Below, piece after piece: positions 7,274 to 14,012 of a stretch of 64,000 nt of DNA. Numbering within the stretch: position 1 is the first letter of the stretch; every line of letters begins with the position of its first letter. This DNA is from Mariniblastus fucicola. GTDB taxonomy: Bacteria; Planctomycetota; Planctomycetia; Pirellulales; Pirellulaceae. Where the stretch lies: positions 3,844,001-3,908,000 of the forward strand of contig NZ_CP042912.1 of NCBI RefSeq assembly GCF_008087665.1, written 5' to 3'. The position numbers were made by a program, and so were the translations under genes. The notes under the pieces are model-generated. The model was not told the origin of the DNA. It made no database searches and saw nothing but the letters and a program-made list of their open reading frames with translations.

Positions 7274-9559
7274 TCATTTCGCATCGGTGTCCATTGGAGC
7301 GGCCTCAAACTTTGATCGAATTTCAAGGAGTTTGGTCCAGACCTCTGATTCATACGATTTCGGCGATCCGCAGATAAACAGCACGCCATGCTCGTTCTTT
7401 CCGGTGATCACTTTGACTCGAAGTTTCTGCTTCAACGGAGTCGCGTTCACGAACGGTTCGCGCCACGCCAACACATAGGAGAACTCCCTGTCGCCAGTCG
7501 TCTGATTCAGCTTTTCTGGCTCGATTGAAAACTTGCTCGTATCGATCCGAGTTCCATTTGTGCCAGAGCGACCGTCGGCCAATCCACGGAAATAGAGTAA
7601 CAGTTGCTCGCCGATCGACTGCTCGCTTAGCTCAGTCGCTTTCGTCAGTTCAATCGCAAACAAATACGAGATAAACCAATCAGAATCCGGATCCCGGAAA
7701 TCGGACGGTAGACGCAGATGCTCCAACCCGGTGATCGACATGGTGGGAGCAAAGCTCGGCGGACAGATGATGACTTCCTCCAACCAATCATCCGGAGCGA
7801 CAAGCGAACTTCGATATCGTCTTGCAGCTGATATTTCCAGGAGAGCTTTTTTCGCACCTTCATTTTCAGGATTCAATTCCAGTGACTTCTGGTAATTCCT
7901 GATGGCCGACGATTCGTCGTGATTGTACCGATATGCTTCGCCCAAACTATCGAACGTATTGAAGCTCGTTGGATAGAGAAGCGTATTGATTTTGAGAACA
8001 TCCAGCGCTAGGTCAATCTGCTTCTTTCCGATCAGCTCATAGCCAATTTCATTGAGCGTCATTTCCCGAATGGCCGGTTCGTTCGGGTCATCACCCTGGA
8101 CCGAAAGCAACATCTCCTTAGCGCGTTCGTAATCGCCATCTGCCAACGCGGAAAACGCGGCACCGGCTTTGGCATGGATCCATGTTGGGCTTTGCATTTT
8201 CCCGGCAATGACCTCAGCCATCTCGGACGACAGCCTTCTCCACGGACCGTCTGCTGTCACGTTGAAGAACGACCTTCCGTTGAAACGAAAGAGCCCTCCG
8301 GAAAAACCAAACCAGAGCGTTCCATTCTTGGCTTCGAAAATATCCTGAACGCCGAAGTTCCGTGTCCTGCTGGGCTTGTCGGCCTGATCGAACAGGGTGA
8401 ACGTTTTCCCGTCGTAGCGATATGCCCCCACTCCAGTAGCTCCGATCCAAATGTCGCCATTTCTCGCTTCCATGATCGAGTAGAGATCGTTTGTGGAAAG
8501 CCCTGTGACTTCAGCAAACGTCGTGAACGTGTTTCCATCGAAGCGGCACAGCCCTCCGTCCCCGGTCATTTTTGGCTGGTAAGATTGCATACAGGTAAAC
8601 CAAAAGTTGCCTTTTTTGTCTTCGATAATTCCTGTGACGTTGTTGCTGCAGAGCCCATCTTTCTTTGTGAAGTGAGCGAAAGATTTTCCGTCGAATTTGT
8701 ACGCACCATCGCCATCAATCGCAAACCACAAGTTCCCCTGACTGTCTTCCAATTGAAAGGAAACGTCTCCTTTCAGGATCGAATAGGACTCAATGTTTTG
8801 CAGTGCGACCGGTATGGCGAATTTGCTGAATCGCTTTCCATCGTGTCGGTAGATGCTTTGCCCAACACTCACCCAGATGGTTCCGCTTCGATCCGCACTC
8901 ACGCTGGCCGAGGATTCGGGCGATGGTGTTCCGGGACCAGGTAGGCCTTCGGCGGGCCCAAGACTGACAAACGACTTTCCGTCAAACTGACAAACTCCGG
9001 CCTGAGTGCCGACGAAGAAATTGCCATCTTTGTCTTCGGCAAAGCTTGGCACTGCGTTGGACGGAAGACCATCTTTCTTGGAAAAGTACTCGACGTTGGT
9101 TCCATCGTAGCGAGCAACTCCCTTGTTCATCGTCCCAAACCACAGATGCCCTTTTCGGTCCTGGTAAACAGCGACGACGTACTGAGCGATCCGCTGAGTG
9201 TCGGCGGGCTTCAAGTCGAGCGAATTTTTAATCCAGTTGGTGACCAACGTTCGCTCTTTGTCAGTAGGTTGATCAAAGTTCTTCGGCGGCATCAAGCGAT
9301 CATTCATTTGCTGCGCGACATCGGCAAACATCCCACGATGTGTTTTAACTTCCGTCAATGTCAGAGCACTGAGAAAGTCCAGCCCTTGCATCGCTCCAGG
9401 TTCGTGGCAATCCGCGCAGTACTTGTTCAACAGAGGGCGAATCCTGGTTTCGTAATCGATTGCGGAGTCGGATTCAGCCGAGGTGACTGGCGGATCTTGC
9501 CCGACACAGCAGACCGCTGACAGGAAACACGCGACAACGAAAGAGGTCAGATGGAACAT
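7274..9559 (-). CDS. Exported cytochrome c-like / seven-blade propeller / TPR protein
   Basis: A 761-residue multidomain protein. Residues 1-20 form a signal peptide (MFHLTSFVVACFLSAVCC). Residues 35-110 hold a planctomycete cytochrome-like segment with one heme-binding CxxCH (C48, C51, H52) and the later RLMPP motif of PSCyt1-type domains. Residues ~125-450 contain seven two-component-regulator-type propeller repeats of the form GxxWxGT...GVxRYDG, enough for a complete seven-bladed propeller. Residues ~470-575 are TPR-like (SAIRNYQKSLELNPEN), and the last ~180 residues are unrecognised. There is no transmembrane segment, kinase or DNA-binding domain, so it resembles a detached periplasmic sensor or binding protein. 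It is divergent from a Ser/Thr kinase whose outer domain also carries CxxCH, which suggests a shared redox or heme-linked role. That link is inference from position only. Confidence 0.75.
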   Translation of the reverse strand: MFHLTSFVVACFLSAVCCVGQDPPVTSAESDSAIDYETRIRPLLNKYCADCHEPGAMQGLDFLSALTLTEVKTHRGMFADVAQQMNDRLMPPKNFDQPTDKERTLVTNWIKNSLDLKPADTQRIAQYVVAVYQDRKGHLWFGTMNKGVARYDGTNVEYFSKKDGLPSNAVPSFAEDKDGNFFVGTQAGVCQFDGKSFVSLGPAEGLPGPGTPSPESSASVSADRSGTIWVSVGQSIYRHDGKRFSKFAIPVALQNIESYSILKGDVSFQLEDSQGNLWFAIDGDGAYKFDGKSFAHFTKKDGLCSNNVTGIIEDKKGNFWFTCMQSYQPKMTGDGGLCRFDGNTFTTFAEVTGLSTNDLYSIMEARNGDIWIGATGVGAYRYDGKTFTLFDQADKPSRTRNFGVQDIFEAKNGTLWFGFSGGLFRFNGRSFFNVTADGPWRRLSSEMAEVIAGKMQSPTWIHAKAGAAFSALADGDYERAKEMLLSVQGDDPNEPAIREMTLNEIGYELIGKKQIDLALDVLKINTLLYPTSFNTFDSLGEAYRYNHDESSAIRNYQKSLELNPENEGAKKALLEISAARRYRSSLVAPDDWLEEVIICPPSFAPTMSITGLEHLRLPSDFRDPDSDWFISYLFAIELTKATELSEQSIGEQLLLYFRGLADGRSGTNGTRIDTSKFSIEPEKLNQTTGDREFSYVLAWREPFVNATPLKQKLRVKVITGKNEHGVLFICGSPKSYESEVWTKLLEIRSKFEAAPMDTDAK

Positions 9560-9865
9560 GCGAGATTGCTTTCTCTGGTTTGAAACGTAAACGATGGGGA
9601 TAGCGAGTCAGCTCAAATGCAAATCAGCTCAAATGTGATTCAAATCCCATCCGCAATCGGCGTCCGGTGATCGAATTTACCGTCAGAAGATCGTGGCCGA
9701 AAATGGAGTTTGCCATTTGCTGACGTAGATCCTAACGCGAAGGCGTTACACTAGGAAAACGTCGACATTCTCGGCAAATTCCACCGTGTAACGCTTTGGC
9801 GTTAGTATAAGAGTCGCTGTGCGAGCAGTGTTTAGCGTGGAAACCCAAATGAGAGGAGCAGCAAA
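9560..9865. other. Divergent intergenic region with REP-like element
   Basis: A 306-bp region between the divergent propeller and kinase genes, with no credible ORF. It holds the inverted repeat pair described separately. A good Shine-Dalgarno (AGAGGAGCAGC) stands just before the kinase ATG. No confident promoter hexamers were recognised. Confidence 0.6.
9732..9805. repeat. REP-like inverted pair of small palindromes
   Basis: Two 20-bp units, at 9732-9751 and 9786-9805, lie in inverted orientation and match at 18 of 20 positions. Each unit is itself a mini-hairpin: TAACGC-GAAG-GCGTTA and TAACGC-TTTG-GCGTTA, a 6-bp stem with a tetraloop. They share a conserved ACAC flank on the side facing the other unit. 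This is the layout of a repetitive extragenic palindrome pair (BIME). No further copy was noticed in the other intergenic regions of this window. Confidence 0.65.
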
Positions 9866-11887
9866 ATGCCAGACCAGCCATTGGCACAATGCCCTGATTC
9901 CGACGAACTCGGTGCGTTCGCGATTGGCAATGTCCCTGAGTCGCGTCTGTCTCAGTTGGCTCAGCATGTCGAACAGTGTGTCGCGTGTGGAGTTGCGATT
10001 GATGCTGCTTCAAGCCAGGACGACTCCGGGTTGGTCGCCGAACTCCAATCGATGAACTTGCAGTCAAGTCACACAAGCAAATCATGTAATTCGAAAGGCC
10101 GGCAAGCATTCGAAATCCCTTCGCAACTATTGGAAGCCGCCCGTGAAGCCGCAGACAGCGCGTCAACTCCAGCTTCTTTTGACTCCGGGCGACGGTTGGC
10201 AAACAAGCTACAGGATGGACCTGTACGATTGGGACGATTTGAATTGCACTCGGAACTGGGAGTTGGTTCCTTTGGCTTTGTGTTCAAGGCTCGCGACACG
10301 GAATTGGACCGCTGGGTAGCATTAAAAGTTCAACGGGCAGGCACATTTGCAACGGACGAAGATGCAGAGCGGTTTCTTCGCGAGGCCCAAAGCATTGCTC
10401 AGCTAAATCATCAGGGAATTGTGTCCGTTTACGATACCGTTCGGTCGGAAGAGGAAATCTGCTACCTCGTCACCGAATACATTGATGGGCAGTCGCTGGA
10501 AGCTGTGTTGCAAAACGGAGCTCTGCCTTTCACCGAATCGGCGAACCTGGTCGCTGCGATTGGCGACGCACTGCAATACGCTCACGACAACGGAATCATC
10601 CATCGCGACATAAAACCATCCAACATTCTGATTGACCGCAGCGGCAATGCACATGTCATGGATTTCGGTTTGGCCAAACGGATCCTGGACGCTGGCAACA
10701 CAATGACATCCGTCGGCAGAGTGATGGGCACGCCTGCCTACATGTCGCCGGAACAGGCTTCCGGTGATTCGCGGCGCGTCGACGCACGCAGCGACGTGTA
10801 CAGTTTGGGAGTCGTGCTGTACGAAATGCTGACAGGAGAACTTCCGTTTCAGGGAAATCGCCGCATGCTGCTGTTGCAGGTCATGAATGACGAACCCAGA
10901 TCGCCTCGACAATTGGACCCGAAGATTCCTGCAGATCTGGCCACAATTTGCCTGAAATCACTGGCAAAACCGCAAAACGCTCGATATCAATCGACTGCTG
11001 AACTGACCGACGATCTGCGACGATTCGCACATGGAAAACCGATCAAAGCGAGGCCGCTAGGATTTCGGGAAAAGCTCTGGCGCTGGTGTCGCGCCTATCC
11101 CTTGGCAGCGAGTTTGTTGGCCGCAATTCCGATCATCACCGTGGGAGGATTCGCCTACCTGTCGTCGCTTTCCACACATTTCGTACACAGTACCGCATTG
11201 GAGGGCACACGGATGGAAGCCAACATGCTCGAAGACATCAACGAGTACTACAGCGAGAGCGTTGTCGGCCCATTGAATCAAAATCAGGTTCCCGTAACAC
11301 ATCGCTATACCGAAACGGAAAACTCCATCCCGCTTCCGTTCACGTTTATGATCGATGCCGGGAAACGCATCTCCGCGGGCGAATCAGGGATGCAAGTCAA
11401 AATCTACAGTGACTTTCCATGGCGTGAGAACAGGGGTGCGCAAAACGATTTCGAATTGCGAGCGATCGAAGCACTGGGGCTTGGCTGCCGCACCGAGAGT
11501 CAGACTGAAGATGGATCTGATGCCCGGCTTTCAACCAAAGAGGATGTCGACGGACGTTCCTTCCACGAGTTCGGCGAAGACGACGGCCAACCGGTGCTGA
11601 GGTATGCCCGGGCACAAATCATGAAACAGAGCTGCATCGACTGCCACAACAACGATCCTTCAAGCCCAAAACAAGACTGGGTCGTTGGAGAGGTTGCAGG
11701 CGTGCTTTCGATTGTTCGACCGCTCAAGCGAGACATCGAATCGACACATCGCGGTCTACGGAGCGCCTTCAATCTCATCGGGGCTGTTTCGGCGTTGTTC
11801 ATCGGCCTGACGCTGATCGTTTTCTGGCCTGCGAAGAATCGCTCGCGATACCGATACAAAGCTGGAGCAGATTTTGATGACCGCTAA
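9866..11887 (+). CDS. Membrane Ser/Thr protein kinase with HC2-like zinc finger and heme-sensor-like outer domain
   Basis: A 673-residue signalling protein. Residues 1-50 contain HxxxCxxC (H34, C38, C41), resembling the zinc finger of anti-sigma factors (zf-HC2). Residues 123-390 are a complete Hanks-type kinase: glycine loop GVGSFGFV, ALK lysine 154, HRDIKPSN with Asp248, DFG at 266 and GTPAYMSPEQ. A transmembrane helix spans about 411-434. About 200 extracytoplasmic residues follow, with CIDCH (C590, C593, H594) and the surrounding pattern of Tll0287-like/DUF3365 heme-binding sensor domains. A second transmembrane helix lies at about 634-655. The clear AGAGGAG ribosome site fixes the start. 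The stop codon lies inside the following sigma-factor gene, so the two are translationally coupled. Probable role: sensing an outside redox or heme-ligand signal and passing it by phosphorylation to the coupled sigma factor (inferred). Confidence 0.88.
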   Translation: MPDQPLAQCPDSDELGAFAIGNVPESRLSQLAQHVEQCVACGVAIDAASSQDDSGLVAELQSMNLQSSHTSKSCNSKGRQAFEIPSQLLEAAREAADSASTPASFDSGRRLANKLQDGPVRLGRFELHSELGVGSFGFVFKARDTELDRWVALKVQRAGTFATDEDAERFLREAQSIAQLNHQGIVSVYDTVRSEEEICYLVTEYIDGQSLEAVLQNGALPFTESANLVAAIGDALQYAHDNGIIHRDIKPSNILIDRSGNAHVMDFGLAKRILDAGNTMTSVGRVMGTPAYMSPEQASGDSRRVDARSDVYSLGVVLYEMLTGELPFQGNRRMLLLQVMNDEPRSPRQLDPKIPADLATICLKSLAKPQNARYQSTAELTDDLRRFAHGKPIKARPLGFREKLWRWCRAYPLAASLLAAIPIITVGGFAYLSSLSTHFVHSTALEGTRMEANMLEDINEYYSESVVGPLNQNQVPVTHRYTETENSIPLPFTFMIDAGKRISAGESGMQVKIYSDFPWRENRGAQNDFELRAIEALGLGCRTESQTEDGSDARLSTKEDVDGRSFHEFGEDDGQPVLRYARAQIMKQSCIDCHNNDPSSPKQDWVVGEVAGVLSIVRPLKRDIESTHRGLRSAFNLIGAVSALFIGLTLIVFWPAKNRSRYRYKAGADFDDR

Positions 11888-12533
11888 GCCAAAAACCTCT
11901 TCGATTGCTGCTCGTGAAACCAAATCGAAATCGGATTTCGACAATGCGAAACTGACTTCACACAGCCTGATTGCACGAGTCAAAGACGACGACCCGAATG
12001 CCTGGCGGCGTATGGTGGATCTGTATTCGCCGCTGGTCTATTTCTGGTGCCAGGAATCAGGACTGCCTCAACACGATTTGAACGATGTGTTTCAGGAGGT
12101 CTTTCATTCCGTGGCTCGCCACATCAGCAAGTTTCACCACATTGAAAAAGGCACGTTTCGCGGTTGGCTCAGGACGCTGACGCGAAACAAACTGAACGAT
12201 CACTTTCGTAAACGTGGACGCAATCCAAACCCGATCGGCGGCACAACGGCACTTCAGTTCATGGAGCAAATGCCAGCGAAATCGTTGACCGGACATGCTC
12301 ACCGATCGCATCAGGAATCCGAGATTCACCACACTTTGTTGCGGAAAGCGTTAGACAACATTCGAGGTAGTTTTGCAGATCAAACCTGGAAAGCATTTTG
12401 GATGGTCGTCGTTGACGGTCGCGAAACCATCAATGTGGCCAAAGATCTGTCCATGAAACCCGGAACGGTCAGAGTGGCAAAATCGCGAGTCCTGAAGAGC
12501 CTGCGTTTGGAAATCGGTGATATTGTCGAATGA
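11877..12533 (+). CDS. ECF-type RNA polymerase sigma factor
   Basis: A 218-residue sigma-70 family factor of ECF type. Region 2 spans about residues 28-100 (DPNAWRRMVDLYSPLVYFWC, then DLNDVFQEVFHSVARHISKF and TFRGWLRTLTRNKLNDHFRK). Region 4 spans about 150-215, with a helix-turn-helix ending VAKDLSMKPGTVRVAKSRVL. A TTG three bases upstream is also possible, but the ATG at 11877 is preferred. It overlaps the kinase gene by 11 nt, a strong sign of coupled translation. No separate anti-sigma gene is adjacent; the kinase's own HC2-like N-terminus may fill that role (inference). Planctomycetes have many ECF factors linked to Ser/Thr kinases. Confidence 0.92.
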   Translation: MTAKPKTSSIAARETKSKSDFDNAKLTSHSLIARVKDDDPNAWRRMVDLYSPLVYFWCQESGLPQHDLNDVFQEVFHSVARHISKFHHIEKGTFRGWLRTLTRNKLNDHFRKRGRNPNPIGGTTALQFMEQMPAKSLTGHAHRSHQESEIHHTLLRKALDNIRGSFADQTWKAFWMVVVDGRETINVAKDLSMKPGTVRVAKSRVLKSLRLEIGDIVE

Positions 12534-12617: not shown

Positions 12618-14012
12618 TCAATCTTCGGCTCGACTTCCGTCGCCGCACATCATCACGATCTTCGGCATGAACTGACCGACAACGTCGACCAAATCCTGCT
12701 GAGCCGCCATCACGTCGTGGATGTTCTTGTAGGCGCCCGGAACTTCATCCAAACCGCCTGCCAACAACCGCACGTTCTTGTGCTTCAAGTGATCGCGCCA
12801 TGAACCCCAACTGAACTTCTTCTTCGCTGCCGTCCGCGACATTGCGCGACCCGCACCATGTGAAGCCGAATTCAGACTCTTGGCGTTCCCCTTTCCACGA
12901 ACGATAAACGCCGCGTCAGCCATGTTGCCCGGGATCACTCCGAGGTCACCTTCACCGGCTGGCGTTGCACCCTTTCGATGCACGTAGACATCCTGTCCGT
13001 CGTGCTTCTCAAGCCACGCGAAATTATGATGGTTTTCAATCGTCGCCAGTGACTTGGCTCCTGCAAGCTTCGTCACATAGCGATGGATCACCTCATGGTT
13101 TGCTGACGCGAACCGGCCCATCAAATTCATCGCCGCCCAGTATTCCTGACCGGCTTCTGAATCCATGTCCAGCCAACAAAGGTGCCGCAACTGCGGATCG
13201 TCCTTGATTCGCGAAGGAGCACCTTGTCGCGCGATGTCCGTGTAACGCTTGCAGGTCATGGCACCCGGACCACGGCTACCGCTGTGCGAAAGCAGACCGA
13301 CGTAGGTTCCGGCTTCCAAACCAAAGTCACCTTCGGCCAACGTCACGACGCCCCACTCAACGAAATGGTTTCCGCTTCCGCTGGTTCCGAGCTGCCCGAC
13401 CGCTTTGTCGCGGACTTGCCGGGTAATCGCCGTGATTGTCCAATCCTCGTCGAGAACCTCGTGATCGTGCGGACGCTTCCACTTTCGACCGGCTCCAAAC
13501 AAGGTGCCTTTCTCGAGCGACCGATCCAGTTCGCGACATTTCGCCGGATCATTTTGCTCAAGCGTCTGCACATCGAGGTCTGTGATCGTCAGCTTCATTC
13601 GGCACGCGATATCAACTCCGACTCCGTAAGGAATCACAGCGTTCTCACAAGCCAGCACACCACCGATTGGCAGACCGTAACCTGAGTGCGCATCTGGCAT
13701 CAGAGCAGCACCACGAGCCACCGGCAACTTGCACGCGTTCTCAATTTGCTGGATTGAAAACTCGTCGAAGTCCTCGCCCCATTTGCTATAAGCGATCGAG
13801 CTCAACGGAACGTCGTTCTCGTGGAATTCGATCAGGGCTTTGGCGAACAGTCCCAAATCCGGATCCGCGACATAGACTTCTGGCGCAGCAACGACCTTTG
13901 GAATCAACTTTTTGGCGCCTTCACGCGTACGCGGCAAAGTCTGGATTGCTGCAATCGCTTCTGGGACGCAATCCTTTGGGACGCCAAGGTTAACTAGCTG
14001 CTTTTTGTTCAT
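12618..14012 (-). CDS. rtcB: RtcB-type RNA-splicing ligase
   Basis: A 464-residue GTP- and Mn-dependent ligase that joins 2',3'-cyclic phosphate or 3'-phosphate RNA ends to 5'-OH ends through a guanylated histidine. The diagnostic motifs are in order: MPDAHSGYGLPIGGVLA, GVGVDIACRM (metal-binding Asp and Cys), SGNHFVEWG, LLSHSGSRGPG, and SHGAGRAMSR with the probable guanylated His385. The length fits the bacterial family. No archease, rtcA or rtcR regulator is adjacent, and the gene stands alone between two intrinsic terminators. It is therefore not organised as the E. coli rtcAB operon. Its role is presumably RNA repair or tRNA healing. Confidence 0.96.
   Translation of the reverse strand: MNKKQLVNLGVPKDCVPEAIAAIQTLPRTREGAKKLIPKVVAAPEVYVADPDLGLFAKALIEFHENDVPLSSIAYSKWGEDFDEFSIQQIENACKLPVARGAALMPDAHSGYGLPIGGVLACENAVIPYGVGVDIACRMKLTITDLDVQTLEQNDPAKCRELDRSLEKGTLFGAGRKWKRPHDHEVLDEDWTITAITRQVRDKAVGQLGTSGSGNHFVEWGVVTLAEGDFGLEAGTYVGLLSHSGSRGPGAMTCKRYTDIARQGAPSRIKDDPQLRHLCWLDMDSEAGQEYWAAMNLMGRFASANHEVIHRYVTKLAGAKSLATIENHHNFAWLEKHDGQDVYVHRKGATPAGEGDLGVIPGNMADAAFIVRGKGNAKSLNSASHGAGRAMSRTAAKKKFSWGSWRDHLKHKNVRLLAGGLDEVPGAYKNIHDVMAAQQDLVDVVGQFMPKIVMMCGDGSRAED

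Follow-up and report, generated by a model that had tools for sequence, protein, structure and literature searches.

In the ECF43 group of extracytoplasmic function (ECF) sigma factors (EcfP with the kinase PknT, EcfK with PknS), the acidic motif is replaced by uncharged residues and charge is restored by phosphorylation, according to PMC8103513, PMC8999054, and PMC13147305. ECF groups linked to serine/threonine protein kinases (STPKs) other than ECF43 keep this motif or a similar one and, in PMC8999054, are said to work perhaps differently, by a mechanism still to be worked out. The locus treated here is a gene pair for a membrane kinase and an ECF sigma factor in a 64,000-nt stretch of Mariniblastus fucicola (NZ_CP042912.1, positions 3,844,001–3,908,000), referred to as a whole as the window. 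With a probability of about 55%, the kinase is read as a transmembrane protein that would unite a sensor, a kinase, and an anti-sigma factor in a single chain, gated by a c-type heme sensor. The locus belongs to a conserved family, and finger-bearing kinases are paired with ECF genes more widely in the same genome.

The pair resembles ECF43 in having neighboring kinase and ECF genes and differs from it in keeping the acidic DxxDxxQE motif. With the STPK-linked planctomycete groups ECF59, ECF61, ECF62, and ECF217 the likeness is one of gene adjacency. Unlike the described ECF43 and other STPK-linked groups, the kinase here carries an anti-sigma-type finger and its sensor is identified as heme-type. 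A precedent for the proposed switch is found in mycobacteria, where ECF factors are freed when PknB phosphorylates their zinc anti-sigma factor (PMC8999054). In the RshA/SigH system (PMC8999054 and PMC13147305), a kinase acts on a zinc anti-sigma/ECF pair as is envisaged here, but the kinase and anti-sigma factor are separate proteins, whereas the present locus joins the two parts in one chain.

The outer domain has its closest counterparts in the sCache_heme sensors (Tll0287-like, DUF3365; for example, Tll0287, GSU0582, and GSU0935), where an inserted short helix between strands 3 and 4 carries CxxCH. Outputs named in a 2026 preprint (PMC12889525) are histidine kinases, methyl-accepting chemotaxis proteins, GGDEF/EAL proteins, and cyclases; the words serine and threonine, sigma, and those beginning with Planctomycet are absent from its main text. 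Heme, zf-HC2, and anti-sigma likewise do not occur in the main text of PMC11032199, on kinase architectures in Planctomycetota. No description of a fusion of finger, kinase, and heme-Cache was found in the open-access literature, in which papers on ECF classification and sigma phosphorylation were covered only in part and may hold an earlier mention of the finger.

Architecture of the Kinase and Sigma Factor

The kinase gene (9866..11887, + strand) encodes 673 aa, assigned from the open frame, Pfam, hydropathy, and motifs to a finger, a kinase domain, a transmembrane helix, a heme-type Cache domain, and a second transmembrane helix. The sigma gene (11877..12533, +) encodes 218 aa with DxxDxxQE at residues 67–74, a Sigma70_r2 match of 2.1e-11, and a TIGR02937 match above cut-off. 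A preliminary description of this DNA had given the same open reading frames (ORFs), 9866–11887 (+) with 673 aa and a sigma frame ending at 12533, and the same overlap of 11 nt, which is counted from ATG at 11877; a start at TTG 11874 would make it 14 nt.

Codons for the finger, C9-x24-H34-x3-C38-x2-C41, occupy 9890..9988 (+), and its anti-sigma type is assigned from the family profile, zf-HC2, and model helices. The H34-x3-C38-x2-C41 part had been recognized before as an HxxxCxxC finger of this type, while C9, the fourth likely ligand, had been missed. H34, C38, and C41 are kept in all 31 aligned rows of the family, and position 9 is C in 30 rows and H in one. In the model, the finger helices lie at residues 12–20, 25–37, and 39–69, and H-x3-C-x2-C spans helices 2 and 3, the signature of class I zinc anti-sigma factors (PMC7406223). 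Matched against PDB, the family profile of the finger finds the solved anti-sigma factors DdvA, ChrR, RsiW, and RslA, with E-values of 8.9e-6 for 8rlz (DdvA), 1.1e-4 for 2q1z (ChrR), 0.0057 for 5wuq, and 0.012 for 3hug. Of the profile matches anticipated in the preliminary description, those to Pkinase and PF11845 were obtained; zf-HC2 found no match in the window protein alone at E ≤ 1 (Pfam), although it matches 15 of the 31 members of the family alignment (best 9.1e-7). Searches with the predicted finger fold gave anti-sigma structures in each of the nine leading Foldseek rows, at weak E-values (1.7 to 4.7), and in each of the seven leading VIA rows, again a weak match. With Foldseek E-values above 1, the fold match was not taken to prove that the finger is an anti-sigma domain.

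Class I zinc anti-sigma factors such as ChrR, RsiW, RslA, and DdvA share H-x3-C-x2-C and adjacency to a sigma gene with this protein, and differ in that the finger here is fused in one chain to a kinase. Known class I factors bear other sensor or membrane parts.

The kinase domain (residues 125–369; 10238..10972, +) matches Pfam PF00069 at 1.4e-52. It holds VALK at 151, HRDIKPSN at 246, DFG at 266, and SPEQ at 294, that is, the VAIK lysine, HRD-x-K-x2-N, DFG, and APE-like motif of Hanks-type kinases, in agreement with the earlier assignment of a complete Hanks kinase. K154, E173, D248, K250, N253, and D266 are invariant in the 31 aligned rows. The two transmembrane helices proposed earlier coincide with two stretches that are hydrophobic by hydropathy, between about 408–436 and 630–657, both flanking the Cache domain. 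Helix 1 is placed at about residues 411–433 (11096..11164, +; model helix 412–467) and helix 2 at about 634–656 (11765..11833, +; model helix 621–669), in a whole-protein AlphaFold2 model with a mean pLDDT of 79 and a pTM of 0.53. Because the two stretches flank the Cache domain, the kinase and finger are predicted to be on the inner side, with the Cache domain on the outer side, where a c-type heme has to be. A cytochrome c assembly gene (Cytochrom_C_asm) is present.

The Tll0287-like/sCache_heme domain (residues 442–619; 11189..11722, +), presumably extracytoplasmic, matches PF11845 at 3.9e-16, with 60.2 bits against a curated cut-off of 24.1. Its CxxCH (residues 590–594; 11633–11647, +) reads CIDCH, upholding the earlier comparison with Tll0287/DUF3365 heme sensors, and C590, C593, and H594 are present in 31 of 31 aligned rows. 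Against PDB, the Cache profile (A1) has 5b82 (Tll0287), at 0.0035, as its only match at E ≤ 0.1. In the AlphaFold2 model, the motif sits on a short helix (588–596) between strands 575–585 and 610–619, a layout that fits the sCache_heme definition in PMC12889525. The flanking hydrophobic helices are likewise those of membrane sensors of this class, from which the protein differs in having a Ser/Thr kinase as output, with the Cache domain on the kinase's C-terminal side. Ser/Thr kinases and sigma factors would hence be added to the outputs of heme-bearing Cache sensors.

The heme of Tll0287 is ligated by Cys and His (PMC12889525). In the compared stretch of 5b82, a single Cys lies outside CxxCH; this presumed axial ligand has no Cys counterpart in the fused Cache domains: in this region 29 of the 31 rows lack Cys, and two have one five places further on. 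In the same source, a signaling-type protein without the axial Cys holds nitric oxide (NO) tightly and releases it slowly, whereas a stand-alone protein releases it fast. By analogy, the signal for the outer domain is more likely to be NO or redox, and heme is probably a bound cofactor. Of the outside "heme or redox signal" proposed earlier, redox remains among the likelier signals, and heme probably does not act as one. PF11845 occurs twice in the window's genome (G000), in the window kinase and in a separate 216-aa open frame. By eye, the axial-ligand motif of this stand-alone Tll0287-like protein (G000:C1:4620609-4621106, −; L076) does contain a Cys, at a place where the automatic alignment is poor.

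Distribution of the Family and Pairing with Sigma Genes

Across the order, 214 of 396 genomes have PF11845 at E ≤ 0.001. When 16 Cache domains were scanned against genome contigs, 448 pattern matches and 342 confirmed relatives were obtained, of which the best 80 were kept, so that rarer or more distant members are uncounted. Complete proteins with finger, kinase, and Cache occur at at least 33 loci (duplicates removed; near-copies such as L086/L087 and L088/L089 remain). The fusion sought in other genomes does therefore recur, and in all 33 cases a related sigma gene lies beside the kinase gene on the same strand, downstream in 30 and upstream in three (L060, L061, and L107). The count leaves aside four N-terminally incomplete fusions: L085 and L111, with a sigma gene; L043, with a finger but no sigma gene in view; and L095, which shows none.

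Among ten Cache-kinases without a finger (L044, L047, L056, L097, L098, L103, L109, L110, L113, and L139, with short flanks in L044 and L098 ending inside the gene), none has a match to the related-sigma profile at E ≤ 1 in the DNA examined, a search confined to that kind of sigma factor. Eight of them (L097, L098, L044, L103, L113, L109, L110, and L139) represent other lineages without the related sigma, and L097, L098, and L044 have, by eye, CxxC zinc-ribbon-like N-termini.

Within the window's genome, the finger was scored with the four-ligand pattern [CH]-x15-32-H-x3-C-x2-C, which is present in 12 of 69 kinase frames as against a chance rate of 1 in 556 non-kinase ORFs of ≥300 aa (first 260 residues, fetched stretches). 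An ECF gene adjoins all 12 of the finger kinases and 10 of the 57 others (Fisher p 7e-8). That the finger goes with the sigma factor is supported both within this genome and among Cache-kinase fusions. The preliminary description had held the combination to be new; the heme Cache is what is special at this locus, while the finger-kinase/ECF pairing itself is common in the genome. Two such pairs stand in tandem at G000:C1:2324281-2330065 (L187).

Thirty-two of the 33 finger-Cache kinases form one kinase clade (bootstrap 91/SH-aLRT 92, the bootstrap being not fully settled). L107 falls outside it, and its sigma factor likewise stands apart. An artefact or chance fusion was rejected in view of the 33 complete loci and the 32 kinases in one clade. 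A single origin of all Cache-kinase fusions is not favored, as the fingerless ones occupy several other branches and supported branches force at least three changes. The correlation of sigma and kinase distance matrices (r 0.87) does no more than restate shared descent. By label, 29 of 30 finger-Cache members are planctomycete metagenome-assembled genomes, and L083 is assigned to Verrucomicrobiales. The distribution is patchy, with no full-length match to the window protein at E ≤ 1e-90 in 27 genomes of the same genus.

A DNA Element Shared by the Operon and Its Neighbors

Two copies of the pattern TGTAACG-N6-CGTTA lie upstream of the operon in the window, one promoter-proximal and facing the kinase and sigma genes (9787..9804, +), the other facing the divergent gene (9733..9750, −); the same opposite-facing arrangement occurs in L078–L081. 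The preliminary description mentions neither this element nor the divergent partner gene. In the window, TAACG-N4-8-CGTTA has two matches against 0.06 expected from shuffles. For the window, a genome-wide repetitive extragenic palindrome was rejected, since TAACG-N6-CGTTA occurs three times in 6.57 Mb, two of them at the locus, as compared to ten times for a reversed control. The looser N4-8 pattern also matches a large repeat array elsewhere in the genome. At G000:C1:2351793-2406437 and from 2666172 onward, at least dozens of TAACG[CT]CCGCGTTA-type sites recur every few hundred bases, which suggests very large repetitive genes or arrays.

Within 300 nt upstream, TAACG-N6-CGTT is found at 21 of the 33 finger-Cache kinases and at none of nine fingerless ones (shuffle means 0.03 and 0.00). 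At the same loci it precedes 10 of 138 other genes of ≥150 aa, all of which diverge from the kinase gene, those in L083 being its two nearest. Since the dyad is nearly identical when read from either strand, a pair of divergent genes may be scored from one copy, as happens in L090, L094, and L129, where a single copy is present. The element has an orientation: TG precedes it in 20 and 22 of 23, and AT follows it in 18 and 20 of 23. Among the other dyad copies fetched from these genomes, seven of the nine preceded by TG face a gene no more than 350 nt away, two of the seven preceding FGE-sulfatase-like genes in two genomes; of those without the TG, nine of 15 lie inside a predicted frame.

The element could also be a plain ECF promoter, although its half-site spacing does not match the −35/−10 spacing expected of one. 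An RNA hairpin is less favored, because the arms are invariant, which argues for recognition as sequence.

Proposed Mechanism and Its Alternatives

The mechanism proposed here builds on the observed domains and their conservation, the gene pairing, the retained polymerase-binding motif, and the DNA element, together with its link to the operon and to partner genes. Heme c would be attached to CxxCH590–594 outside the membrane, where the Cache domain may bind NO or change redox state. The transmembrane stalk would relay this change to the kinase in the cytoplasm. At rest, the co-encoded ECF sigma would be kept inactive by the N-terminal zinc-type finger, to be freed when finger, linker, or sigma is (auto)phosphorylated. 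The freed sigma may then switch on its own operon and the divergent gene through the region holding TGTAACG-N6-CGTTA, with a putative binder at the element.

Of the mechanisms considered, the one in which the kinase would double as anti-sigma factor has the most support, and the interpretation in the preliminary description is on the whole largely sound. The acidic RNA polymerase motif, [DE]xxDxxQ[DE], is intact in all 31 aligned family sigmas, and the uncharged DAED/DxxD positions of region 2.2 with a phosphorylatable Thr that mark ECF43 are accordingly not found. Since the family sigmas keep the motif, unlike the phosphorylation-activated ECF43, an inhibitor is to be expected. No separate anti-sigma gene was seen adjoining the operon, whose neighbors are the divergent propeller gene and a convergent gene (12618–14012), the rest of the window not being searched. 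With the motif intact and no such gene adjoining, the finger is the natural candidate inhibitor.

Adjacent STPK and ECF genes are, on the other hand, the hallmark of the ECF43 mechanism (PMC8999054 and PMC13147305), and the family sigmas have conserved Ser/Thr residues (T27 in 31 of 31, S28 in 29, S30 in 29, and T or S at 123, after region 2, in 30). A direct switch as in EcfP/PknT and EcfK/PknS, with the kinase activating sigma and the finger as only a docking site, is nonetheless considered unlikely. The motif whose loss makes ECF43 factors inactive is kept throughout, the finger resembles sigma-sequestering domains, and PMC8999054 notes that such groups may work otherwise. More improbable still is a finger that, as a zinc module, serves the structure or regulation of the kinase without touching sigma, the pairing being inherited linkage. 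The weak fold match, an independent-pair test that is not significant, and sigma-paired kinases without a finger in the window's genome are consistent with it, but finger kinases of several kinase-tree branches all adjoin ECF genes, and the best sequence matches are anti-sigmas.

Two further alternatives are compatible with a kinase that doubles as anti-sigma factor and concern its input and the element. The outer domain could be a redox or electron-transfer sensor (for example, of respiratory state or iron) rather than an NO sensor, a possibility put somewhat below even chances: Tll0287-type domains can serve redox functions (PMC12889525), and the window's divergent gene has a CADCH segment, but the domain lacks the presumed axial Cys and in this matches the NO-holding signaling type of that preprint. 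Similarly, and at the same odds, the element could be the operator of an unlinked dimeric regulator and not be recognized by sigma. Its dyad form and half-sites that presumably do not suit ECF spacing favor such an operator. Its 5+6+5 geometry is that of CRP/FNR-type sites. An Rrf2-family regulator gene (L132:4038-4454, −; Pfam 5.4e-35) adjoins one module, divergently; some Rrf2 proteins sense NO. Against an unlinked regulator stand the orientation given by the flanking TG and AT, the lack of the element upstream of the nine fingerless Cache-kinases, and the absence of a recurrent regulator gene recognizable by eye among the listed neighbors, most of which were not searched.

More tentatively, and at slightly less than an even chance, an anti-sigma factor built into the kinase (about a dozen times in this genome) may be a general way in which planctomycetes keep STPK-linked, motif-keeping ECFs off. 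The window version would have a periplasmic c-heme NO/redox sensor driving a small regulon of exported proteins via TGTAACG-N6-CGTTA. A kinase-fused anti-sigma-type finger would be a concrete answer to the mechanism question that PMC8999054 raises for STPK-linked ECFs other than ECF43. The external heme sensor, kinase, and sigma-binding finger would together make a testable model of how bacteria might switch genes on. The prediction comprises a small set of target genes marked by a specific DNA element, and an unassigned family of Tat-type, His-rich proteins.

Partner and Neighboring Genes

The divergent gene (7274..9559, −), which has the element within 300 nt upstream and is predicted to be co-regulated with the kinase–sigma operon, encodes 761 aa; the protein looks exported by eye and contains Reg_prop propeller repeats, tetratricopeptide repeats (TPR), and a CADCH segment. 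Its Pfam matches include Reg_prop at 8.3e-29 and Cytochrome_CBB3 at 0.0012, the latter below its cut-off. Reg_prop genes were scanned in L078–L081.

At other loci, a partner protein of ~520 aa with a twin-arginine-like (Tat-type) start, by eye, and many invariant His residues adjoins the module. Sixteen of the loci examined have it, L287 and L288 besides 14 of the 33, and at some others the stretch is too short for a decision; examples are L091:2830-4395 (−) and L114:7377-9005 (+) (alignment A10). The element precedes 15 of these 16 genes, whether divergent or downstream (shuffle means 0.05 or less), and in each of the 15 the copy is, by eye, other than the kinase's nearest. The partner is encoded in 13 of 16 genomes searched. 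In the remaining three, G000, G350, and G794, a Reg_prop gene takes its divergent place, the CADCH segment being in the window's copy. No family was assigned to the partner at E ≤ 0.01 from four members against Pfam and three against NCBIfam. Its sole PDB match, 5mfi (E 4.8e-5, ~60 columns), was not used because its name is like that of an engineered repeat protein.

After the sigma gene of L129 lies a gene (L129:7406-8923) whose product is similar to the heme-degrading radical SAM enzymes HutW/ChuW, at 9.9e-37 but under the curated cut-off. By eye, L143 has a similar gene (L143:7366-8919). A transporter-like protein comes next, again by eye.

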